Source: Bolinopsis microptera (Eukaryota; Ctenophora; Tentaculata; Lobata; Bolinopsidae). Taken from it: a stretch of 64,000 bases of DNA. A program made the translations under genes and the position numbers. The stretch covers positions 6,527,675-6,591,674 of the forward strand of contig NC_087078.1 of the NCBI RefSeq assembly GCF_026151205.1, read 5' to 3'. The notes under the pieces were generated by a model. It was not told the origin of the DNA. It made no database searches and was given only the letters and a program-made list of their open reading frames with translations. Positions within the stretch are counted from its first letter, which is position 1; every line of letters begins with the position of its first letter. This document shows positions 5,252-64,000 of this stretch, piece by piece.

Positions 5252-6673
5252 GACCAACTCCTCTACACTGATAATACCCAATTTTTTCTGCTCTGTGCAC
5301 CCTTCAGCGCTACGAGGGGAATAGTATAAGAGTTAATTTAGACATTAGAAGATTTAGATACCTAACGACTTGCCTAATGCCTATCGATACAATGCCGTGG
5401 AGGGGGAAGGGTAAAAGTTTAGTAGGCCCCGAGCCTTTCATTATTCATGTGGGCTCCCAATTCCCATAAACAACACATCCTAGTAAGAATCTAGCCCCTT
5501 TAAATTTCTCATCATTCCCACAATTGTTGTTTGATATGTCTCGCGACTCGGTAGATCAGCACATTCATTAATAATTTATGTAAGTTACGGCCGGACTTTT
5601 GGATCACCCTATAGAAGATTATGATTTGACGATCAATAACAAACATTTGACTCTTGGGGAAATTAATCAAGGTTTCACAGGAAAAAAAGTTAATAAAATC
5701 GTACGTGCACAACGTAATATCTACGAACAGAAAACTATAACTAGTGCAGTAAGTTCACGCAACATGGTCGTATTATACAAGGTAGGTACTGGCAGCTGGC
5801 AAAACCATGTTTATTATTGTTGTATCGTTATACACACATACAGTCTTGATGTTTACTCACATGATGAATAATGCGACTGAATATATTTCTAAATCATGTA
5901 TTTGATGACCAGTACTTCTATAGTCAGGAACTAATCTGATTAACTTGTACAGTGGGGTGTCATATAAATTATAATAAATTCCTTATTTCTGGTCGTTGAT
6001 TAACAATTCTTATGGTTTTTACATTAATGAGTTAGGAAATTAGTTAGGTATCGGCACCACACACAACGTTCCGTTTAACTTAATGATTGGTGCCGGCTAG
6101 TATTACCTCACTGCTGATCAACCAAGGTGACATGTTAGAGATGGTCATTAATAATAGCTTCATGGCTGAACCTGATTGATTCTATGAAGAAAACGCAACA
6201 TTTTCCTGAAAAAGCACCCAGACTTTTTGATTACTTCGCTAATTTCTTTAATGTGTTATTAAATTTTGTTCCATTTGGTCAGAGATTATATTACTACATC
6301 TTCTTATTTAAGATTTAGAAGAGATGTAAGCAAAACTGCTCCTAGTTCAAGGAGAACTTATATTGCCAATCTAGGACTTAACTAGGACTAACTATCGGTG
6401 AATCACGAATTTTGTTTATTGATCCCAGTATCTTGTTATGTTCATTACGCTGATTTCCAGTAGCATACTCTTTAAGAGAACATTTAATTCTATGGTGAGA
6501 TCATGTTCATGTCACGTACAAGCCGTCTCCCCGCAGAAAGGTTTGGTCGATTATTCCCAATGATCCCAATATAGTTTAGATATGTGCGGTTTAAAAATAT
6601 CTTACTCCATTTCACTTACCTCCGTGCTGTGGTGTACCCTAAACTGCTGGTATCTATTAATTGGTATTAGTAA
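5252..6673. other. intergenic; two transposon-end fragments
   Basis: No supportable gene. Positions 5591-5613 read on the minus strand as TA(G)GGTGATCCAAAAGTCCGG, an end typical of IS630/mariner-like elements. Position 5950 starts a CAGTGGGGTGTCATAT end after a TA, matching the MITE at 10011-10682. Neither fragment has a recognisable partner end nearby. Open stretches here show no splice context or family resemblance. Confidence 0.5.
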
Positions 6674-43429: not shown

Positions 43430-45409
43430 TCAAGGTATAGCGTCTTTAAGGCACCGTATAATATCCGGTTTTTCACCTAATAAGAAAAGCTTAAGATGTT
43501 TAAGATATCGCTCCCAGAATAGGGGTTCCTTGTTCTGGAAACTCCTTCCAATAAACCAACAGCAAACCGAATTTATGAAGTTAACACTTTTATCTCTGTG
43601 ATTTAAGCAAATCAAATAGTGGCGATATGGGTCGTCATAATTTGCGTCAATATTCGATCTAATAAACAGATTTACTCCCTGTAGGAAAGAGCTTGTGGCT
43701 GGACAGTCAATAAATATGTGAGAGATAGTTTCGAGGTTGTGATTACATAACGAGCAATTTGGACTATCTTTTTCAATCTTCATTTTATATCTCATGTACC
43801 GACAAGTACTAATCCGGTGAAGGAGCTTATATTGGTACTGAATAAGTTTGAAGTTATTTGAGAAAGAAGTAAAAATATCCGTAAAAATACTAATCCAATC
43901 AATATCCGTTAAGGAGAGGTTAGCACTCCAGTTCCTCATTGGAGGAAGGGTGCTGGGATCTAAACGCTTAGACATGGTATCTCTAATGTTTCTACCTTTG
44001 ATAGTGAGAGGAGTATCTCTAGAGTTGGGGGTATTCCTACCTCCCCAAAAGCGAAGTGAAAGTTGGGTATCGATAAATGTAATGTTACTTGTAAACGTAT
44101 CGGTATTATTAAATCGACGTATTCCCAATTTTATACTCGCATATTGAGTCGAAGAGATTATACTACTTGTTTGGCCCCACTTTCTCAGAAATTGCTGAAA
44201 ACTTAAGAGGTTACCTTCCTCTGAAACGAAATCAGAAAGATAGATGATATTTCTATCAATAAGAATATCGTTCCAGAGCTTGGAGCCAATGTCCGTTATT
44301 ACGTCGCTTCCCCACACACAGTGGTTGACTGTACTCTTACTTGACTGTGAAGAAATAGACTTCCAAAGCTTATAATGGCGAAGAAGGTTAAAGGTAAAAC
44401 CAGTATTCTTTAATGTGAGACAGTTTTCTATACACACAGTTGGTATATTTGGGTGTAAAAGCTGATTGATGATAATATTTTTCCAGGCATGTTGGAAATT
44501 AGGATCGATAACTTTTCCTATAAGTGACACTTTTAAACCTATAATAAAATCGTTAGTATAGAAGAGACCTAGACCCCCACATTCACGAGGAGAAGTAACA
44601 ATATCGCGTTTCAACTTATCCCTCTTACAACCCCACAAGAAGTGAAATATCATAGTGTCTATTTTACTGATGGTGTTAGTATCAGGAGTTTCTAGTGGTA
44701 TGATAAGGTAAGTGAACTGGGAAAGAATAAGAGATTTAATAATTGTACACTTTCCTATCAGAGTTAAGTCTCTCTTACTCCAGGTGTTGATAGCGGAGCT
44801 GGCGTTACTAAGTTTACTGTGGTAGTTCATTTTGCAGAGATCAGCTCCACTAGACGTGTTGTCGAACTTGACTCCTAATGCTGTAAACTCGTTAGCTACC
44901 ATGTCTTCCCCGTATGTACTGGTAAGGTAATTTCGAAGACTAGTGTTGTCTCTGGTAGCTCCTAAAGGTATGCACTTAGTTTTACTGATGTTGGGCTTAC
45001 AGCCTGAGTGCTGACCGAACAGGTTGAGCTCTAGGATAACTGCATCTACGCAAGCCTGGGAGGGATCCAGGTACAGATCCGTGTCATCAGCAAACAGACT
45101 CATGAGTATGTCGATACCATTAATGCTGAGGCCTTTAATATAAGGGTTATACTGTAGCTTATTACTAAGTACCTGGGACACTAGGAGGAAAAGAATTGGG
45201 GAAAGGGGGCTCCCCTGATGGACGCCACGAAGTATGTGAACAGGGCTGCTAAGGTGTCCGTTAACGTTAGCGTAACTCATACCAGCGTGAAATGCCACTC
45301 TCACCAAGTTGATTAAATAATTTCCAAACCCCATACCTTCCAAGACACTGAAAAGAAACTTATGTTCGACCGAGTCGAAAGCCCGTTGGAGGTCGACCTG
45401 CATAATCAT
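43430..45409 (-). pseudogene. LINE reverse transcriptase, C-terminal 659 codons
   Basis: Open frame with RT motifs in order: VDLQRAFDSVEHKF, GVHQGSPLSPILF and the catalytic FADDTDLY. A thumb region with SKRDLTLIGKCTIIKS follows, then the cysteine pattern CSLCNHNLETISHIFIDC near the end. The frame is open upstream of the first Met to 45452, where the nested element begins. It resumes in frame beyond 46844 (KSTSDNLILM). It cannot be functional because the first part of the polymerase is missing. Confidence 0.88.
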
Positions 45410-45452
45410 ACCAGTATCCTCTTGGTTATCATGGTAATGTTCTAAGGTTAGA

Positions 45453-46844
45453 TACAGGGTGGTAATTCGTCTTCAAATTGCACCAAAATTTCAGAGATTA
45501 TAGATATGGGTCAAACTTAGATTTCCTGAAAGTTTCGTAAGCCACGCTCAATTACAGTGGGCGTGGCGTGACACTGCCTCTTTTTCACTATTGCCTTAAT
45601 AAAATGAGAACGCTTTAAGCTAAGAACTCCACATTTTTTGCACACATTTGGCTTGATAATTTAAAACCTTTCCCAAAGTTTCAAGTTCATTGTTTAAAAT
45701 TTGGCTGAGTTATGACCATTTCAAAATTCATCGGATACGTGATCCGAGCACTCAGTCAGTGATCTCTGCACTTGGTTAATGGCCTGTTTGGCTCACATGC
45801 ACCGCTTGATTGGTTGCAGGGCTTGTTAGCCCTGCTAGTCACAGGTTCGTTCCTTACAATCGATAAAAAGGAATGAACTATCCATTGAATCATCGAAAAT
45901 GGTTCACTATCCTCCCTATACTGCGGAACAACGATTGTTTGTCTACCTGAACAAAGAGAATGGGGAGTTCTGCCCTCAGCTTAAACGACAATTTCAAATG
46001 AAATTCAACCGACCATCCCCTTGCCGGAAAAGCTGCTTTGATATGCATCACAAGATCAAGTTCACTTTTTCTGCAAAAGACGAACTGCGAGGACCGAAGA
46101 AAACATCACCATGGTTGTTTGTGACGTGATGGATACCTAAAATTGGCACCCGAAAACGAGCTCCTACCTTAGACCTCAGCAGAACATCCCTTCAACGAAT
46201 CCTAAAGCGAGATCTTTCTAACCGGGCCTATCGGATCACAAAGAAACACCAACTTTTAGACCGTGATTCACGATCTGGTGCGCCATCAGTTCTCGTGGAA
46301 TCCTAGGACCTTACTTTTACGAAGAATTTGGTGTTTTCCTGTCTAGCAAAGTCATTATCGGTATCCAATCAATCATGATCAGGTCGTCATCTCCTCAGTA
46401 TGTTTGGTAAAGCCTAATGAACCTCATTAATACACGCTAACGCCTTACTCTTGATCAGATTGGGTGACGAGATCACTGATTGAGTGCAGAGATCACTGAC
46501 TGAGTGCTCGGATCACGTATCCGATGAATTTTGAAATGGTCATAACTCAGCCAAATTTTGAACAATGAACTTGAAACTTTGGGAAAGGTTTTAAATTATC
46601 AAGCCAAATGTGTGCAAAAAAATTAGAGTTCTTAGCTCAAAGCGTTCCCATTTTATGAAGACAATAGTGAAAAAGAAGGAGTGTCACGCCACGCCCACTG
46701 TAATTGAGCGTGGCTTACGAAACTTTCAGGAAATCTAAGTTTGACCCATATCTATAATCTCTGAAATTTTGGTGCAATTTGGAGACGAATTACGTTAGTT
46801 ATTAAGAGGTTGCGTGTGGGTAGTCACTTTTGGGCCACCCTGTA
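45453..46844 (+). mobile_element. IS630/mariner-like element with ~330-bp inverted repeats, inserted in the LINE
   Basis: Bounded by TA on both sides. The right end reads inward as TACAGGGTGGCCCAAAAG; the left is TACAGGGTGG with about 50 bp deleted after it. Arms 45455-45780 and 46455-46842 are inverted copies with few differences. Between them is a decayed transposase start. The ends and TA target are typical of IS630-Tc1-mariner elements. Confidence 0.85.
45899..46320 (+). pseudogene. transposase N-terminal remnant
   Basis: It begins VHYPPYTAEQRLFVYLN (the N-terminal helix-turn-helix wording of DUF4817-like transposases) and stops at 46129. It continues in another frame with DLSRTSLQRILKRDL, a second helix-turn-helix region (ends about 46320). 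The DDE catalytic part is missing. The ATG at 45899 is in context, but the frame is broken, so this copy is dead. Confidence 0.65.
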
Positions 46845-52066: not shown

Positions 52067-55000
52067 ATGCCAGAACTTCGGGAAACGGGAGGTCCTTGCG
52101 AGGTTAAAAGTTCCAAGGTTGGTACTACTTATTTTAAATCTCCAATGTGCTCTATTGTTGAGAAAAGGCTACTGACTCTTAGCAGCGACAGATTTGTCTA
52201 TCTGTCTTCAGATAATACACCTCTAAGCTGACAAATATTTGTGTTCCAATTTACTAACATATCAGCGACCTCTACACCTACCAACCCTTTCCTCAGCGAG
52301 TGTGGTTGTTTTCAGAGAAGAACGCTCGAGCTCTATTCCGTGACTGTGTAGGGGAAGCAGTAGGAACCTTCTTCCTTATCTTGGTGTGTGTGGGAAGTGC
52401 TAACTCCAGGGCCCTCGTGGGACTCACTCCTGGAGAGCCTGGCGCTGTACAGTACGCTCCACTCTACTTTCTTACCATCTCTTGTGCTTTCGGGTTCGGT
52501 AAGGGCACATTGCGTAGTGTTGAATCAATCATCTCTATATCGTCCAGTTAATTTCGTTGCAAATTTCAACTTTATAATTTAGTGTCCTGCGATTAACGAA
52601 TTTTTGAATGGACGAAATATTGCTGAAATTTATAATAATTGAAGCATTTTTTACGTTTTTCATTCGGAGCTGAATCCAGCAACCATGTACCCCCCCCCCC
52701 CCCCCAGCAACCATGTAACACCCCCAGGTATCGGAGGTATAGTGCACTTGTTGAGCGCTACAAGCGGTGGTCACGTGAATCCAGCAGTCACGTGGGCTCT
52801 CTTCCTCGACAGGAGGATCAGTGTGGTTAGATTTGTGCTGTACATTCTGGCTCAGTTTATCGGAGGGTTCGCTGGAGCAGGTATGTTTACTGACCATTGA
52901 TGTAACATCCTGGTTCAGTCACAATTGTCATTGATTGATAAGTGTCTTGGTTTAAATTGCTACACGTTTTATCCGAAGGGCCTATTCTTGATCTCCGGAG
53001 GATATTGAATATCATCTTTAGCTTTCATTTGATTTTTTTCTGTTTCTGCATTTCTTGTGTTAGGAAACAGTTACGAAATATTTAAGGTGCATTTCAAATC
53101 AGACAGATCCCGTAAAAAACCAAACTGCAACTACAATTACTACATTTATTTCAAGTAACTCTCACATTTCAACTCCAAATTAAATTCTCAGGAGCTCTAT
53201 ACGGTCTTGGATCCCACAAAGAATTACACGAGGACATCAAGGGAGGAAACAGCTACGACAGCACTTACATCAGCCACGGAGATGCGTTTGTTCTGGAGGG
53301 ACTGGGAACCATGTTCCTGGTGCTGACTATTCTCTGTTCTATTGATGAGCAGAGAGGTCATGCTGCCTCGCACCTACAACCTCTTGCTATTGGTATTGCT
53401 ATACTCGTCATACACATCTGGCTGGTTCGTGAACACTTTATTTCTTTAGTTTAGTAAATTGTAAATACACGATATAAGACTACCTTATCGGACGTTATTT
53501 GACTTTAGTTTAGTACTATACCTTACTCGGGATTATTATAACCGGGATAAAGTGGTGGGTTTTGGAAGATTCCGCCATATTTTTCCCGGTCAAAAATTTT
53601 ACCAGTCATAAAAAAACCCGCCGACTCAGATTATGGGGTTCCAAGGCCAAGGGGGTGGTGATCATCATATTTTACCTGAAGTCTCATATGTGCTAGAGAA
53701 GACTTTTGAAGCAGTGGATGGAGGGCTGTAACTTTATTGGCGGTTGCTACCATAATTTCGTTATAAAAATCACAATTTGGTTATAGAAATCAGATTTCAG
53801 GGTAGACCGTGATTCTCACTTTTCTTGCCCATGAAGTGAGTAAACTGTGCCACTATTTCATGGTCCACGGTGGATTGATTACTGGAGCAGTTGAAGATGC
53901 AAAGCCAAGACGTTCCCCAATACCAAGCGGTGGGCAGGAAATTAAGCTCCGGCTGACCTTCAGAGCAGTAGCCCCATTAGCGGACAAAATGAAAGTCTTG
54001 TTAAGACAACAATACAACTTCGAATTTGACGGTCAGCAGCAGGGGGATATCAATAATGATAATGGAGGGGACATTAGCGATAATGAGAATGAGAATACGC
54101 TTTAATGAAGATTTGACTTATTATTGCTATAGATTTATTTTCCTTTAAATACTAGACGTGTCTTTTTTTCTATTTCTGAGTAATATCAGTAACTGTAAAT
54201 TGAAATAACTTCTTTAACAAGTAACAAAAACAGAAATTTCGGTTGAAAATTTGTTGACCTCTGAAAAAAAACTTGAAAGGTCGGCCACCGGTAAATACAT
54301 GACCGGGATAATTTGGCGGGTTTTGGGAAAGTCCGCCATATTTTTCCCGGTTATTAATTTTCCCAGTTATAAATTAACCCGCTATAATATTCCCGAGTAA
54401 GGTAAGTATAAAATATAAGACTTATAGTTAATTTTTAGTTTGGCTTAATCTTATACTCGGATTTGAGGCTTGAATCGGTTGCATCTGCTATCGATATGGC
54501 ACAGGATAACAGCTCCTAGATAACAATTAACTTCCTTAATTATGTTATCTTCTTGAATACATCTGCGACAAAGTTTAAATCAAACGTTGTGTGGTTTTAT
54601 GATAAATTCGACGAAATACCAGATATAAAGGAACCATATCGACGCAGCTAGGAAAGTAAATTGTATTTTATTTCACCCATTATATTACTTCAGAGTTCAG
54701 ATACCATATCTACGCAGCTAGGAAAGTACAATGTATAATGAATAATGTATATTGTACAATGTATATTGTATTTTATGATAACCCTTACTTCAGATACCGT
54801 ACACTAACTGTGGTATAAACCCGGTGAGAGGAGTAGTTTGGAACATTGTTATCGGACAGGCCACCTATCAAACACTGGTCAGTGACGAATTTAGAAATTT
54901 TATTAGATCAAAAATGTACTTATTTTTAAAAATCGTATCATTTACAAGCTGTTATCTACCTTAATTCGATCAAAATAAAAATATAGAAGTGAATGGAAAT

Positions 55001-56783: not shown

Positions 56784-59700
56784 ATGCGTCTGAAATTTCT
56801 AGTTTTACAGCTGCTTCTCTTAACGGTAAGTTGTTTATTATATGCACTATATGCACTATACGCTGAGCGTGTTCAGTTTAGCAAAGGAACGGGAATTTGA
56901 AAAAAGGTATTGTATCATGATAGATGAAAAGTGGGCAACCCCTTCAATTGATCGAATTATAAACGATAATAGGTATGAACACATCTGTAAATTCCTTTTA
57001 AACTGATAATAGGTTATAACCATTAGTAACAATAGTTACGCACGAAACCATACTTCATATTACTCTTATTACCCACACAGGAGTACATACACTGCAGTGG
57101 AAAGGGGGAGATACAACTTTACAAGTATACAGACTCTTCAAACTGCGGAGACGAGTGTGACTTTTACTTTAAGAACTTTGTGATCCAGGATGAAGAAGGT
57201 AATGAATTTCTCAGAGTAGCAAAAACAGACGACACCGGTAACACCGATACTGTCTATTTCTCTAAGGTGAAGCAGCTTGATGAAGATATTCTAGTTAACA
57301 TCCATACTGGTAGGAGTATAACTATATCATTTGAAGTATGGGATAAAGACACGGATAAATATAATATTGATGATTATGAAAGAAATATATCAGATTTGGT
57401 GTTACCATTTTCAGACATTAGTTCAGGTGGAATCTGGTCGTGGAAATCCTTTGTAAGTAACACTAACGCTGAGGGTGACTACAGCAAAGCAACTCTTTGG
57501 ATAAGATATAGGATATTGAGCTGCGATAGCCATTTTACTGGATTAGGCTGTAACTCCTGCGTAGCTAACTACTACGGAACAGAGTGTGGTAAATACTGCG
57601 ACCCTAACCCCGGTTATTATGACTGTGACTCCACTGGAGAAATAGTCTGTGAAGAAAAGAGAACAGGAGATAGGTGTAATGACTGTAAGGAACATTTCGA
57701 GGGAGAAAATTGTGAGAGGTGTGTTGAGAGCTACTACCCTGAGGGAACCTGTGATGTGAAATGTCTTCCGCACCCACAGAAATATAACTGCACTAACAAG
57801 GGAAGTAAAGAATGCCTGGTAAATAGGGAAGGATATGACTGCGAGGACTGCGTCGTTAACTACTACGGAGAGGATTGCTCTAACTTCTGCCATGAGACTA
57901 CTAGCTACACTTGTGATGAATCAGGAGAGAAAGACTGTAGGGAACACTTCTACCCAGACGAGATATGTGACGCTTACTGTGAACCAGTGACAGGTAACTA
58001 TACCTGTAATAATACTACAGGAGACAAGATTTGTGCGGAGGGAAAGGAAGGAGGAGACTGTGATGAGTGTCAAAACAGAAACAAAGAAGGAGGAAATTGT
58101 GACAAGTGCATTGAAAACCACCACGGTGAGAATTGCACAGTCTATTGTAAGCCTGATGAGTACTTTGTGTGTTCAGAAATTGGTTACAAGGTTTGCGTGG
58201 ACAACTCAACCAGTGTTGCAAATAATTGCAGAGAAGGTAAGAACCTAGAAATAGCGAATAACAGCAATACAAGTCTGCTTTTTATTTATTATAATAATAT
58301 CATAATATTATAGGGTAAGGCACGTAATTTTGTCAGGGTACCTAATTTTGTCATTTTGCTCTGAAAAACTGCCTCGGCTCGGAATTTCAGCTTGAAAGAA
58401 AAGGTTTGTGTATAAAAAGAAAGCTTAGACTTTGCTGAAACTGCTCCTACAAAGTTTAAGTTCTAGCTCTTTTGCATCTGTGTCAAAAATGAAGGCGAAA
58501 CTGTTAACCCGAAAAATAAATAAGATCCTTAAGGTTTTCTTAAGGAATTTTCAAAATTTTGATTTATTGCTATTTCAAAAGTAATTGAGCTAGCTTCATG
58601 CCATTGCATATTTCAAATATCTTCTACAGCAGAAGTATACGTACAAATTTTCAAGTCTCTAGCGCAATTATTGTTCAAGTTACAGAGGGTGACAAAATTA
58701 GGTTCGATTTTGCCAAAAGTACCTAATTTTGTCAAAAAAATCGACCTTTTTCAAATTTCTTGTAAATCACAGATTGTGTTGAAAATGGCCTTATACAACT
58801 ATTCTGAAGTTTTTTTGCCCATAGGATATGTATAAGGCACTTATAATAGCATAACACTTATAATAGCATATTTTCGCCGAGAAATATAGATGATCTAATC
58901 TGATTTTTTCAATCTAAAATGACTAAAAAAATATTTGATGAAATTACTAAGCATGTGATCTATCTACAGACATGAAAATTTCAACCTAGACCTAGAACCA
59001 ATCGTTTTTTAAGATGCCAGTGGTTTCAGGGGCATTTGGGGGCTATTTTCTAAGATTAGATACCCAAATAGTGTCATCTTTTCATCAAGCTACAAAACTA
59101 TGAAAACATCATATCTTTGGGATTTTTGAGGTCAATGTTGGTAAAAAAGCGCTCGAATGATGCATCCAGGTAGTCTAAAATACCGAAAATCGGTTACTTT
59201 TTGCACAATCTTCAAGTGACAAAATTAGGTTCGGGGTGACAAAATTAAGTAAAGTCACCTAATTTTGTCATTTTTTCAAAATAATTTTTTTGAACATCTT
59301 CAACCCCAGCAATTTCGATCATTTTTGTGTTAGAACTTGCCTAGACTGTTTACTATAACATGGTGGAGGTTTCATCTAAATCGGAATTTCAGACGAGGTT
59401 AAAACCCATGGTTTATATCAGGCAGTCGGAAAATTGCCAAAAAATGACAAAATTATGTGCTTTACCCTATGTGCACCGAAAATGGTGTGGATAATTCAAC
59501 CAGTGTGGCAAACAAATGCAAAGGAGGTAATAATGCAGCTATCTTTAAAATAACAAATATAATCAGCCTTACACAATACACACTAATTGTAATCGGCTAT
59601 TATGTTAATCTTTTCATACTTTTAGGTACAACATTAATAACCAAGGCATTAAGCTCCCTTTATTTCTTTGGAGATTTTATGAGATAATGCTCCACCGTTG

Positions 59701-60193
59701 TTGAAGTAAAGAGTGTTATCGAGATTCGAGTTATTTACATTTTACGAATCTTAAAGATGTCTATCAATTCATTTTTGAATGGGCAATATTCCGGAAAGTA
59801 TAGGATATTTATTTTGTGGTACATAATTATAATATTAGCTATTTTTCAGGCAAAGCAGTACAACACAATATAGGAGTTTGGATATCGTCAGGGGTGGCAG
59901 CGGTTTTCTTCATAACATCAATAATAATGGCTGGATTGTATATCCTACACTTACGTAGAAAGCTGGAAAATGTCTCTGCCAGCAATGTGATCTACACTAA
60001 TACTGCAGTTCCCAAAATTGCTGAAACAATCCCTACGACTGAACACAACTACGACAATGTTGTTCTCCGAGTTACCTCGCCCAACAATGATCATCTCTAC
60101 AATGATGTCGTGCTACAAACTGAACCTGCTCTAGACGAATCAGCATACGATTACGTACGAATCGAGGATGTGGTGAGGCACAACATTAGATGA
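56784..60193 (+). CDS. single-pass receptor-like protein: Notch-ligand N-terminal domain, tandem DSL-like modules, tyrosine-motif tail; 513 aa
   Basis: Exons 56784-56825, 57081-58236 and 59850-60193 sum to 1542 bp with agreeing phases (0, 1). Aa 1-14 (MRLKFLVLQLLLLT) are the hydrophobic core of a signal peptide. Aa 15-160 resemble the MNNL/C2-like N-terminus of Delta/Jagged proteins (CDFYFK; ITISFEVWDKDT; LWIRYRILSCD). Aa 162-214 fit a DSL domain (CDSHFTGLGCNSC, then YYGTECGKYC and C...G..C). Further cysteine modules to about aa 397 repeat the pattern C-x2-C-V-x-N-YYG-x2-C-x3-C...C-x3-G-x3-C: about five in all, some missing a pair of cysteines. No EGF repeats follow, unlike Delta and Jagged. 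One TM helix (about aa 408-432) ends in LRRK. The 80-aa tail has YTNT, YDNVV, YNDVV and SAYDYVRI; the last fits an ITIM-type S-x-Y-x-x-V. Surface location follows from the signal peptide and TM helix. Binding to Notch or to any other partner is not shown. Confidence 0.85.
58311..59469. mobile_element. non-autonomous TIR element in the DSL gene intron
   Basis: Ends TAGGGTAAGGCACGTAATTT and its near inverse (ATTATGTGCTTTACCCTA), with TA at both sides. Several internal copies of CCTAATTTTGTCA in both orientations. No transposase frame. Length 1159 bp. Confidence 0.8.
59470..59560 (+). pseudogene. partial duplicate of the DSL exon 2 end
   Basis: GVDNSTSVANKCKGG followed by GTAATAATGC is a diverged copy of the exon 2 end (CVDNSTSVANNCREG, GTAAGAACCT) and the first bases of its intron. 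It starts right at the edge of the TIR element. It has no acceptor, so I treat it as unspliced relic DNA. Confidence 0.6.
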
Positions 60194-61025
60194 ACCAAGG
60201 TTTGGAAGAGTCGTGAATCGAAATTATTAATATTCCATATGAACTGATTAAGGAATCTGACTGTTGTCAAATTCTAAAGTATTATATTTTTATTACTGGT
60301 TTGAATTATTGTTTGCTGCAAGTGCAAACCTAACGAACTAAGGAACTTGGCGTGTTAATTATGTCAGTTTTTTCTTCAATGTATGTTATTAATTAGTATT
60401 TTGATCTTATTCTAGAATTTACTCGATGATTATCAAGAATTTTTTTACTATTACTTGTGAATATTTGAACATGTTTAAGACTAGATCCCATGTTTACTGT
60501 TTAGTACTTTCATTTGATAATTCCGTTTATAAAATCGGATATTACTGACACGTTTTCTGTATGTTTATCTAATGCATGTTATTACTATTGACAGTAGATT
60601 AGTAGTGGTTTGTTTAGTGATTACAGAATTATTGATTAAATTCTCCAGCGTATTATTTTGTACAGTTGAAATTAATTTAATATCGGCGACAGAACTAAAA
60701 ACAGTGTCAGAACTAGGACACTAAATTGTGACTTATGAAATCCCTATGATTGGAAGGTGATTCCAATAGGTTCTGACTCTTGAACTCTTGAGGAGACGTT
60801 CATAGAATTATTAATCGCTCACCTTGCCTGGTAAAAGGTATAAGCAGCAAACAAATATATGTTAGGTTTCCTTGAAAATTCGATAAATCTTAATTTGAGC
60901 TTACGAAAAACCTATTAAATTAGCATTTAACTTCCTGATCAATCTAAAATGAGGTTCCAGACACAAATTACCAATATACACCGTCCCTCCTCCTCCCGCC
61001 TGATCGATGTAAAACTTAATTTGTG
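60194..61025. other. 3' flank of the DSL gene; nothing else recognised
   Basis: AT-rich 3' UTR and intergenic DNA, with ATTAAA at about 60634 as a possible poly-A signal. Confidence 0.4.
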
Positions 61026-61097
61026 GGAGCAGACTGTGATGAATATGCTCCGAACATCTATCCTAATGGAACATGTGATGTGTTCTGTGAGCCTGAA
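61026..61097 (+). pseudogene. fragment of a second DSL-like module, cut by a LINE
   Basis: GADCDEYAPNIYPNGTCDVF then CEPE matches the C-x-x-Y-P-x-G/E-x-C-D-x-x-C-x-P modules of the gene at 56784-60193. It has a stop before it and no splice acceptor, and ends where the LINE 3' end begins (about 61098). Confidence 0.6.
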
Positions 61098-61294: not shown

Positions 61295-62889
61295 TCAATA
61301 CTTCAATAGTTCTTCATGTCTGGCTAAATGACCTGCGAGTCTCATCCTCCGTGCAGCTATCTTATCAGATGCTCTGATGAGGTGTCCATACACCTTGGCG
61401 TTAGTCTGCCGCTCTTTCCAGTCAATGTTCAGTGCCATCCTCAGTATTCTCGTATAACATCCATCAATACGTTTTGCGAGGGTCTGGCTGACAGTCCATG
61501 TTTCAGAGCCATATAGAAGGATGGACTCGACTGTAGCCAGGAACAGTCGTATCTTGAGATCTCTACGCATATCCGACTTCCATACAAGCTTCATCTGGTG
61601 ACACGCTCCCCATGCCTTAGCTTTCCTCACTTCGAAGTCCTTCTCCGAACTCTTCATTCTACTACCCAAATATACGAAGTCATCGACTTTCTCAATGTTC
61701 TTCCCACTCCCAGCAACCAGGGTCGGGTTATCATCATCTCTTATGTTGATTCCCATGTACTTAGTTTTCCCCTCGTTGAGGTGGAGTCCGACTGAGTTGG
61801 CCGCCAGTTCCAGACCCGCCAGGAAATCTTGTGCCTCCGCGACACTATCTGTTACAAGAGCAAGGTCGTCAGAAAAGTCCGCATCAGTGACCTTGACTGC
61901 CGGATAGCGACGGCTTCTTCTAGGGTGTAGAGTAAACCCAAAGTCCCTTCCCTCTAGGGACACCCTCATAATGTAGTCAATTACGATTATGAATAGGTAG
62001 GGCGCCAAAGTGTCTCCCTGCATCACTCCTGCTAGAATGAAGAATGCTTCACTCAGACCATCCTCGGTAATCACACGAGCAAATGTATCTGCATACATTC
62101 TTTGTATCAAGCCTACAATCTCCTTGGGAATTCCATATGCCAGGAGGATCTTCATGAGGAGTCCACGGTGCACGCTGTCGAATGCCTTCTTGAAATCAAT
62201 GAAGAGCATTACCGCGGTCAGATCTTTATCCCGGGCTCCCTCAAATACCCTTCTTAGGCCAAGAATATGACTAGTTGTTGACCTACTCTCTCTGAATCCG
62301 TTCTGATTGATCCTTAAGATGTCTTCCATGGCAGGTTTGATCCTGTTCAGTATCATCTTATTGAGAGTCTTACTCACTATAGATGTCAGTGCAATACCTC
62401 TAAAGTTATCTACTTTGGTCAAATTCCCTTTCTTTGGAACAGGCACAATGGGTGCTTCCATTGGTCAGGAACATCGCCATCAACTAGTGCTTTATTGCAG
62501 AAGTCAAGGAACAAATCATCAACATCTACCCTCTTCAGTACTTCAGGGGCAACTCCATCCTCTCCAAATGCCTTACCTTCTTTAATCGATTTCGTAGCCT
62601 CCTCCAGTTCGGTCTTGGTGAACTTATCCACACTGATGTTTTGTGGTGGATGTACGACTGGTATGTCCACTTCTTCGTTTGGAACTACTGGAGGTTGTCC
62701 AAGTAGCTTGGTAAAGTGGTCTTTCCAGGCTCTCAATCTACCCTCTCTACTACCTCCTTCTACAAGACCACATGGCTTCTTCTTTCTCCCACTGACCTCA
62801 TTAACAAGATTCCAGCTCTCTTTGTTCTTGCATCTATCGGCTGCGTTTTCAGCTTTACTTATTTTCTGTTTAAGCAGCTCTTCCTCCAC
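61295..62889 (-). pseudogene. LINE reverse transcriptase with a frameshift near 62460
   Basis: The 62889-62419 part holds the linker and KTELEEATKSIKEGKAFGED; 62461-61295 holds IVPVPKKGN, NFRGIALTSIVSK, MLFIDFKKAFDSVH, GVMQGDTLAPYLF and the catalytic FSDDLALVTD (Ser where Ala is usual). Then YLGSRMKSSEKDFEVRKAKA and RIDGCYTRILRMALNIDW, wording typical of the RTE-related elements common in invertebrates. Confidence 0.82.
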
Positions 62890-62947
62890 AGTACGGTAGC
62901 ATGCAGAGAGAGTGTCTTTCTCCTCAGCAACTGTCTGTCTGTTGTCT

Positions 62948-63894
62948 TCACAAGTATCCAGATGGTAGGTCTCCTAGGTCAGAGCCCAGGGAATTGAAAG
63001 AGTTGCATGGCTCGGTGTTCTTTATTGAGCTCCTCCACTTCTTCCGTACCAGGACATAGTCAATCTGGCTCCTAGTTAGTACTCCATCTGAGAGGTGATT
63101 CCACTGCTTACCAGGACTCTTCTGAAAACGATGATTCGTCGCCTCTAACTCTCCCTCCAGCAGTGTATCCCTGAGCAGATGACCATTACGATTGGTCACT
63201 TGATGCCAGTACCATCCCGTATCTTCACCATTCAACTTGCTGAGGTGAGCATTAAGATCTCCTATTACAGGTAGTAGATGATGAGAGGGGACCTCCCTTA
63301 CTGCTGCTCTCAAGCAGTCGTGAAACTCTTCGGCTTCTTCGAAAGTTGCGGATTCCGTTGGACTATACACAGAGATTATGGTTAATCTTGGGTTTCCGTC
63401 CAACGACACAAGCATGCAGCGCTTACTATAGGTCTTGATAAGACTAACTGCATTAAAGGCTTGTTTAGTCAGCAGGAATCCCACTCCTCCTGTAGACGCT
63501 TGTGCTCTGTTTCTCCATGCTGAAGTTGTTATTAGGTGGACTCCCTTCTTGTGCCTCTCTATCTTGACTTCTTCATCATGCACAACTCGGTGTTCTTGTA
63601 TATTGCAAGGACAGATATCTGACTGCGCAAGAAAAGAGTAACCATTTCAAGCCGTTTAGAAAACTCCCTCACAGTACGGACATTAAGAGTCCCAATGATA
63701 CTCTTCTTTGTACAACTAACTACTCCTCCACTATTTTTTTGTTTTTTGATGTTTTCTGTTGGCTTTCTAGGATTCATAAACACATCATCAGCTGCCCGTC
63801 CACTATGTGGGTTTAGGACAACCGAGTCATAACTGTACTGATCCTCGATATGCCTGGTAGGGGCTTGAACCCTAGTGCTTTTGGTTGTAACCAT
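62948..63894 (-). pseudogene. LINE AP-endonuclease domain, one frameshift
   Basis: Motifs in order: GTLNVRTVRE, then in the shifted frame IQEHRVVHDEEVK, GGVGFLLT, ISVYSPTE, GDLNAHL (the conserved GDFNA position), and SQIDYVLVRKKW. The frame change sits at about 63600. This is the domain also found in craniofacial development protein 2 of vertebrates, itself LINE-derived. Confidence 0.8.
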
Positions 63895-64000
63895 ATCTGT
63901 TTTTCAAAAGGCTAAGTAACCCAGTGAAGTCCCCTTCACTGTGGCAAATGGTCACTAATCCCAATGCCACGCCACCGGAACATTGGGGAAAACCGCAGGA

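Follow-up and report, generated by a model that had tools for sequence, protein, structure and literature searches.

The window, meaning the whole stretch of DNA that was analysed, comprises 64,000 nucleotides of the ctenophore Bolinopsis microptera (contig NC_087078.1, here C7, positions 6527675-6591674 of the 264.65-Mb assembly). Marker searches of the assembly fit a ctenophore, in which ATP6 is nuclear, better than a cnidarian or placozoan, an origin considered and set aside: ATP6-like matches lie on C6 and C11 (two of four with stops), COX1 gave no match, and neither did zf-C4, a weak negative as that model matched nowhere. The window carries a gene for a predicted single-pass receptor, in which a C2-like head is followed by a stalk of tandem DSL modules, a transmembrane (TM) helix and a cytoplasmic tail with tyrosine motifs. 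Splicing of 56784-56825, 57081-58236 and 59850-60193 on the forward strand yields 513 amino acids (aa) and a stop codon, with GT-AG borders at both introns. Exons, introns and product length agree to the base with those of the initial annotation of this DNA. The gene is composed of the following parts:

56784..56825, + strand: exon 1, start codon and signal peptide MRLKFLVLQLLLLT, followed by a GTAAGT donor
57081..58236, + strand: exon 2, head and tandem DSL modules
57081..57521, + strand: head, residues 15-161, MNNL/C2-like, with the candidate Ca2+-site aspartates D32, D41 and VWDKD
57522..58236, + strand: tandem DSL region from residue 162, with five Pfam DSL stretches
about 57558-57680, + strand: best DSL stretch, residues 174-214
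59850..60193, + strand: exon 3, juxtamembrane part, TM helix, cytoplasmic tail and stop codon
59894..59953, + strand: TM helix, residues 415-434, the most hydrophobic 20-mer VAAVFFITSIIMAGLYILHL
59954..60190, + strand: tail with the motifs YTNT, YDNV, YNDV, YDYV and YVRI

Exon 1 codes for the signal peptide only, and the head of about 147 residues is followed by the cysteine-rich stalk within exon 2. The hydrophobic 20-mer ahead of the tail has a mean Kyte-Doolittle value of 2.21, in line with the single TM helix expected from the initial annotation. Behind it lies a tail of 81 aa with five tyrosines. Four of these had been assigned to YxxV/I or YxN contexts, a count that needs correction because all five lie in such contexts, four of them in YxxI/L/V.

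Searches of the genome with the exon-2 product and the tail exon gave 117 and 19 matches, respectively, so that the gene model is not a chance assembly of open frames. Loci fetched from the same genome are labelled L001-L025. The tail belongs to the receptor and not to another gene, since L009 encodes head, DSL modules, TM helix and a window-type tail in a single open frame of 436 aa, and the same exon order is found in L008, L010 and L016. At least 29 copies of the head are present, two of them with stops, when heads are counted by hand among the 117 matches (query start ≤60, end ≥100). C7 carries 17 of them, with 11 at 6.23-6.85 Mb and 5 at 1.64-1.74 Mb. Eight of the 29 heads have a window-type tail match no more than 2 kb downstream on the same strand, and in five of these head-tail pairs (window, L008, L009, L010 and L016) the matched stretches contain no stop. 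Other tail copies are solitary or broken. The frame of L006 is interrupted, and the tail match beside L005 gene 2 carries a stop. A scan of all 20 first-fetched loci revealed a comparable signal-peptide exon with a GT[AG]AG donor, situated 100-400 bp ahead of the head exon, for 8 of 22 fetched heads (L001, L002 twice, L003, L004 twice, L005 gene 2 and L008). The same eight heads are the ones closest to the window head (52-75% identity), and at that stringency the exon is absent upstream of the 14 more distant fetched heads. The start codon of the second L004 gene is displaced from its usual place.

Several rearrangements were observed among the family loci. L006/L007 (C7:6.231-6.244 Mb, + strand) mirror the gene order of L005/L011 (C7:6.454-6.473 Mb, - strand) at about 87-95% identity, which we read as an inverted duplication. 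In the L006 copy of the 12-DSL gene, about 1 kb splits two parts that form a single frame in L011. Four copies of one broken stalk fragment lie at C7:1726512-1734056 with an exact spacing of 2425 bases and identical scores and stops, a regularity that marks them as a tandem array, located downstream of the cluster at 1.71-1.72 Mb. Behind the genes of that cluster, a second type of signal-peptide exon (MKLIFLLTKLLLLT followed by GT[AG]AG) occurs at L002:4013, L002:8269 and L003:3945, and the L003 copy precedes a truncated head copy.

Pfam DSL (PF01414) matched the window protein in five stretches with an E-value of 6.9e-15 and 55.5 bits (cut-off 24.2), which bears out the earlier description of one DSL domain and about four DSL-like modules. 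No other model reached its cut-off. The laminin-type models remained below theirs (EGF_laminin 14.8 bits, cut-off 21; EGF_LMN_ATRN 15.7 bits, cut-off 27), no further EGF model appeared at E≤1, and no immunoglobulin (Ig) or lectin domain was found above cut-off. DSL also reached its cut-off in all five paralogs scanned, with 12 stretches and 243.5 bits in L011. In L009, EGF_laminin (32.6 bits, cut-off 21) scored higher than DSL (24.9 bits), and among the scanned proteins it exceeded its cut-off only there. The preference for DSL over laminin-type or EGF modules is thus upheld for the window protein and reversed in this paralog.

Serrate, Jagged-2 and the canonical DSL exon of the Bolinopsis genome itself (L021) share 11 residues with PRD/PRN and GHY between two cysteines of the domain. 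This 11-residue loop carries the Notch-binding residues. Among 123 loop segments of the family (22 fetched open reading frames, leaving out several shorter or second ones), 83 have a length of 8, 37 of 7, two of 9 and one of 11 residues; PRD/PRN occurs in none and GHY in three. All five segments of the window protein are 7-8 residues long. The shortened loop argues against Notch binding, and because the DSL modules are without the 11-residue PRD/PRN...GHY loop, a role as Notch ligand is unlikely. The idea of a protein that presents the DSL face of a Notch ligand is therefore not supported, as loops of 7-9 residues without PRD/PRN replace the 11-residue one in 122 of the 123 segments. A PDB search with the DSL region of the window protein alone returned no Notch ligand, but two weak unrelated matches.

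At least 72 DSL matches were obtained from the genome (150 of 214 candidates scored), one of them canonical. This is the single DSL exon at L021:2852-3061 (C3:8.855 Mb; CVPRDSRAGHYTC), which matches Serrate with 6.7e-10. An open stretch at position 2403 of L021, ahead of this exon, ends in an MNNL-like manner by eye. L021 probably represents a true Delta-type ligand of the genome. A second, intron-rich tandem-DSL type was observed in L023 and L024 (C4:3.6 Mb and C13:9.63 Mb), whose last fetched exon ends in a TM-like segment followed by a short tail that has none of the tyrosine motifs. DSL matches on C1 and C8 may belong to this type. Another DSL combination is found in L022 (C3:3.44-3.45 Mb), where DSL exons lie beside exons that appear sushi-like by eye.

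The head was characterised with an alignment of 23 of the 29 heads (A1), leaving out L013 (a near copy of L014), C13:11776751 and the partial or broken heads in L003, L007, L009 and L015. Pfam MNNL matched none of the 23 heads at E≤10; the model gave no match anywhere in the genome, so this is weak evidence. Comparison of the 23-head profile with 177,635 distinct PDB sequences placed Jagged-1 (E 0.084) and DLL1 (E 0.13) on top. Both matches are individually weak, and both alignments are colinear across the junction of head and DSL. Four C2 sequences of protein kinase C (PKC) followed, also weakly. Alignment of the head profile with JAG1, JAG2 and Serrate in hhalign yielded a probability of 53.6% (P 1.3e-4) over 76 columns, in the C-terminal half only. 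Singly indecisive, these profile matches jointly favour a divergent MNNL/C2 domain. The MNNL/C2-like head of the initial annotation is accordingly retained as a remote likeness to the N-terminus of Notch ligands, and not as a domain that Pfam MNNL recognises.

Aspartates at exon-2 positions 18 and 27 (D32 and D41) are each present in 21 of the 23 heads, [WY]DxD in 19 by a count by eye, and both loop-1 aspartates together with [WY]DxD in 19 of 23. Based on the alignment with PKC and on known features of C2 domains, we infer that this conserved set corresponds to the calcium loops of a C2 domain. An AlphaFold prediction from the single sequence of the window head and first modules (221 aa) reached a mean predicted local distance difference test (pLDDT) value of 36 and a predicted template modelling (pTM) score of 0.24 and was not used. 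Two candidate domains in the heads were rejected. Thiol_cytolys_C stayed below threshold (15.3 bits, cut-off 23), and DUF6263, found in 4 of 23 heads with a best E-value of 1.7e-4, was regarded as sub-threshold or chance (18.1 bits in L011, cut-off 26.7).

Sixteen tails were scored, leaving out L008, L010, L016 and further tails in L003, L015 and L018. The family has two main tail types, either long with many YxxI/L/V motifs or short and window-type. Most relatives have the long type, with 121-499 aa and 5-25 tyrosines (L001, L002 (two), L003, L004, L005, L006, L007, L011, L012 (two), L015 and L018). A long-type tail used as query gave 12 matches, 10 of which lie within fetched family loci; the remaining two (C7:8694928 and C7:8695249) adjoin a short stalk match. 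In total, the 16 tails feature 99 tyrosines in YxxI/L/V and one NPxY. The YxxI/L/V count was reached in at most 2 of 2000 shuffles for nine of the 16 tails, and in 12, 14 and 23 shuffles for L012_875, L015 and L007, respectively.

The two tail types meet in one pair of closely related copies. Between L009 and L005 gene 1, identity amounts to 95.3% in the upstream DNA, 94.6% across the head and 96.4% across DSL modules and TM helix, but falls to 42.0% for the tail and 47.0% for the 3' flank. From position 5640, L009 continues with a window-type tail, which is 88.4% identical to L005 from 6224 and 85.2% to L006. The identity of L009 to the window from 59998 is 89.9%, including the 3' flank. The junction falls within a 17-base gap just inside the membrane. 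Since the ectodomain DNA of L005 and L009 is about 95% identical and the tails are unrelated, we conclude from this comparison that the signalling end was replaced by recombination while the binding end stayed almost the same.

The heads appear to diverge faster than the rest of the protein. The ratio of non-synonymous to synonymous substitution rates (dN/dS) in the head exceeded that of the remainder in each of the 13 pairs compared (0.41-0.98 vs 0.17-0.56); these pairs share sequences and are not independent, their stalk modules may be paired non-orthologously, and the remainder can include TM helix and tail in non-window pairs. Head and DSL dN/dS of the window copy against six paralogs are below 1. 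On a tree of seven heads, 56.5 non-synonymous compared to 6.5 synonymous changes were counted for exon-2 codons 106-140 (P=0.0084), one of five bins. Among the three pairs of recent duplicates, two have a head exon that is less conserved than non-coding DNA flanking the gene. The head exon is 89.0% identical in L010/L016, with outer flanks of 96.1% upstream and 96.8% downstream, and 87.7% in L006/L011, with an upstream flank of 92.6%. A recognition-type family with variable heads gains support from these values, in keeping with the recognition between cells that had been considered initially.

Taken together, we consider the chances about even that the window gene codes for a single-pass recognition receptor of a lineage-expanded, diversifying family that signals via tyrosine phosphorylation. 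In the proposed mechanism, the C2/MNNL-type and probably Ca2+-binding head on its tandem-DSL stalk would bind some surface or lipid ligand. Ligand-driven clustering would allow a Src-type kinase to phosphorylate the tyrosines in YxxI/L/V (and YxN), and the phosphorylated tyrosines would recruit SH2 proteins. Copies with near-equal binding faces but different tails could then differ in output, in the manner of paired immune or allorecognition receptors. The genome contains 33 matches to SH2 exons and, by eye, a Src-type SH3-SH2-kinase gene. Judged by eye, L025 (C102:19000-27172), of which a second copy lies on C107, is a Src-type gene that combines kinase exons with an SH3 exon and with two neighbouring SH2 exons, which may represent alternatives or a tandem. 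We put forward more tentatively, as a possibility that we hold to be somewhat improbable, that the arrays, diversifying heads and exchangeable tyrosine tails constitute an independently evolved, DSL-based paired-receptor system of this ctenophore, serving immune or self/non-self recognition.

Several observations weigh against this interpretation. Just 9 of the 99 motifs conform to the strict immunoreceptor tyrosine-based inhibitory motif (ITIM), and neither the strict activation motif (ITAM) nor hemITAM occurs in the 16 tails; the window tail has one ITIM pattern (SAYDYV) and neither of the other two. The motif excess of the window tail is modest (count equalled in 31 of 2000 shuffles), and a clear excess is missing from L018, L009 and L014 (148, 166 and 927 of 2000). 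Tail swapping is documented by one case rather than by many. On C102, tandem SH2 exons were considered as a Syk or SHP candidate; this was rejected because, read by eye, they lie in a Src-type SH3-SH2-SH2-kinase gene, no search by the names Syk or SHP having been made. The other four codon bins are without excess (P 0.59-1), and the test ignores transition bias. L005/L009, the third recent pair, has no head excess (94.6 vs 95.3%). Lower identity than in the outer flanks is not confined to the head, as L010/L016 show it in intron 2 (91.2%, 114 bases) and in the DSL part (93.0%) too, and L006/L011, relative to the upstream flank, in the first DSL modules (90.5%). Because head dS is raised as well in L010/L016 (0.155), block exchange between copies could have produced the fast head divergence, and selection fits these data too.

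Among the rival explanations, we hold it unlikely that the protein is an engulfment or scavenger receptor comparable to CED-1, Draper or MEGF10, whose head would bind phospholipid of dying cells or microbes with Ca2+, whose stalk would space the head and whose YxxI/L/V motifs would start phagocytosis. CED-1, Draper and MEGF10 combine an EMI domain, laminin-type EGF repeats, a cysteine-rich stalk, a TM helix and a YxxI/L tail, and are not known to have a C2-like head. The cysteine-rich repeat stalk, the TM helix and the YxxI/L/V-type tail of the window family resemble this layout, the C2-like head with its conserved aspartates suits a phospholipid ligand, and the L009 modules score as laminin EGF above DSL. 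However, the window family differs in its head, and EMI was not detected in the six proteins scanned (window protein at E≤1, five paralogs at E≤0.01). The lone NPxY among the 16 scored tails speaks against engulfment as well, and tail swap and head divergence would be unexpected for a conserved engulfment receptor.

A cell-type identity or adhesion molecule, homophilic in the manner of Dscam or Alr and acting in tissue or neural patterning rather than defence, is distinctly unlikely. Hydractinia Alr has an Ig-superfamily ectodomain. A large clustered family with variable tips would be in keeping with such a role, but the switching of tails points to graded signalling output.

Decay or silencing of the window copy is also quite improbable. 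Intron 2 contains two features that could be taken as signs of decay:

58310..59470, strand unassigned: 1161-bp element with 26-nt terminal inverted repeats (92%)
59487..59533, + strand: degenerate duplicate of the exon 2 3' end (58197-58243), 83% over 47 nt

The element is by appearance a non-autonomous DNA transposon, and the duplicated exon end is also visible as overlapping matches to L008. Other copies of the family are broken, as described for the L006 frame and the tail beside L005 gene 2. The tail dN/dS of the window copy is 0.47 compared to L008, 0.76 to L009 and 0.28 to L016, and 0.94 to the L005 and L006 copies, which are identical over the compared codons; the range of 0.47-0.94 against four close tails also counts in favour of decay. 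Nevertheless, the frame is complete, the GT-AG sites are intact, and head and DSL dN/dS remain below 1 against the six paralogs.

A Notch ligand or cis-inhibitor, whose head and first DSL module would engage Notch and whose tail would signal in reverse, could draw on the Pfam DSL match, the colinear top matches to Jagged-1 and DLL1 and four matches to Notch LNR exons in the genome, but is very improbable in view of the loop shortened in 122 of 123 segments, the absence of PRD/PRN and of EGF repeats from a window protein with only DSL at Pfam cut-off, and the separate canonical DSL exon.

The recognition receptor favoured here can be compared to known systems. Like Delta, Serrate and Jagged, the window family has a signal peptide, a putatively C2-type N-terminal domain running into DSL and a single TM helix. 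Unlike them, it has several DSL modules instead of one followed by EGF repeats, lacks the 11-residue DSL loop, carries a tail with tyrosine motifs and forms multigene arrays. With ITIM/ITAM paired receptors it shares cytoplasmic YxxI/L/V and, in one case (L005 gene 1/L009), near-identical ectodomains with different tails, whereas canonical ITIM, ITAM and hemITAM patterns are mostly not attained and no Ig or lectin domain reaches its Pfam cut-off in the window protein.

Tandem DSL modules are not new. The statement of the initial annotation that known Delta/Jagged proteins carry a single DSL is incomplete, as Nematostella genes consisting of DSL only (1-11 repeats) and one with MNNL and three DSL have been reported (Gazave et al. 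2009, PMC2770060), as well as a Delta-like receptor tyrosine kinase of Capsaspora with two DSL domains (PMC4810162). The Nematostella genes resemble the window family, by description, in their tandem DSL modules, once with an N-terminal domain; neither a tail nor the evolution of a family is described for them in the available text (PMC2770060). Gazave et al. (2009) left open whether these genes are real or misassembled, a question on which the Bolinopsis family bears (PMC2770060). The Capsaspora receptor likewise ties a DSL ectodomain to tyrosine phosphorylation, but according to the part of the source available it has its own kinase and tandem EGF repeats, whereas the tail of the window family could only be a substrate (PMC4810162). 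On ctenophores, the same source, as far as available, lists a Pleurobrachia orthologue of Delta and states that Mnemiopsis lacks diagnostic Delta domains (PMC4810162). The at least 72 DSL matches in Bolinopsis, including a canonical one, bear on the latter claim.

Recognition receptors with tyrosine motifs are known from Botryllus (fester co-receptors) and Hydractinia (Alr), where ITIM, hemITAM/ITAM or core Y-x-x-I/L/V occur (PMC12065747). In the available portion of this review, YxxI/L/V is termed the 'core tyrosine motif', the fester co-receptors have Ig-superfamily ectodomains, and alleles or splicing exchange one tyrosine motif for another in Botryllus (PMC12065747). These receptors are without DSL; in contrast, the window family is DSL-based, and the switch observed in it is a genomic swap of tails between copies. 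In the available main text of a paper on the immune repertoire of Mnemiopsis, DSL and Notch are not mentioned (PMC11797021). In the literature searched, within limited search terms, we found no description of a tandem-DSL receptor family with tyrosine tails, nor of receptors that combine variable heads with two types of tail and a swap between them. If the proposed role is correct, a DSL-based recognition family in a ctenophore would extend the convergence among recognition receptors and single out one candidate locus for recognition in comb jellies, possibly the sister group of the remaining animals.

Further features were noted by eye around the receptor gene. Downstream lies a remnant of the same kind of domain, followed by retroelement-like frames:

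61020..61097, + strand: relic fragment of another DSL-type copy (FVGADCDEYAPNIYPNGTCDVFCEPE)

Frames resembling the reverse transcriptase and endonuclease of long interspersed nuclear elements (LINE-type) were seen at window positions 61295-63903 and 43430-45472, both on the - strand, the first of which adjoins the relic DSL fragment. Upstream of the receptor gene, aquaporin-like exon frames are located at 52258-53454 on the + strand.

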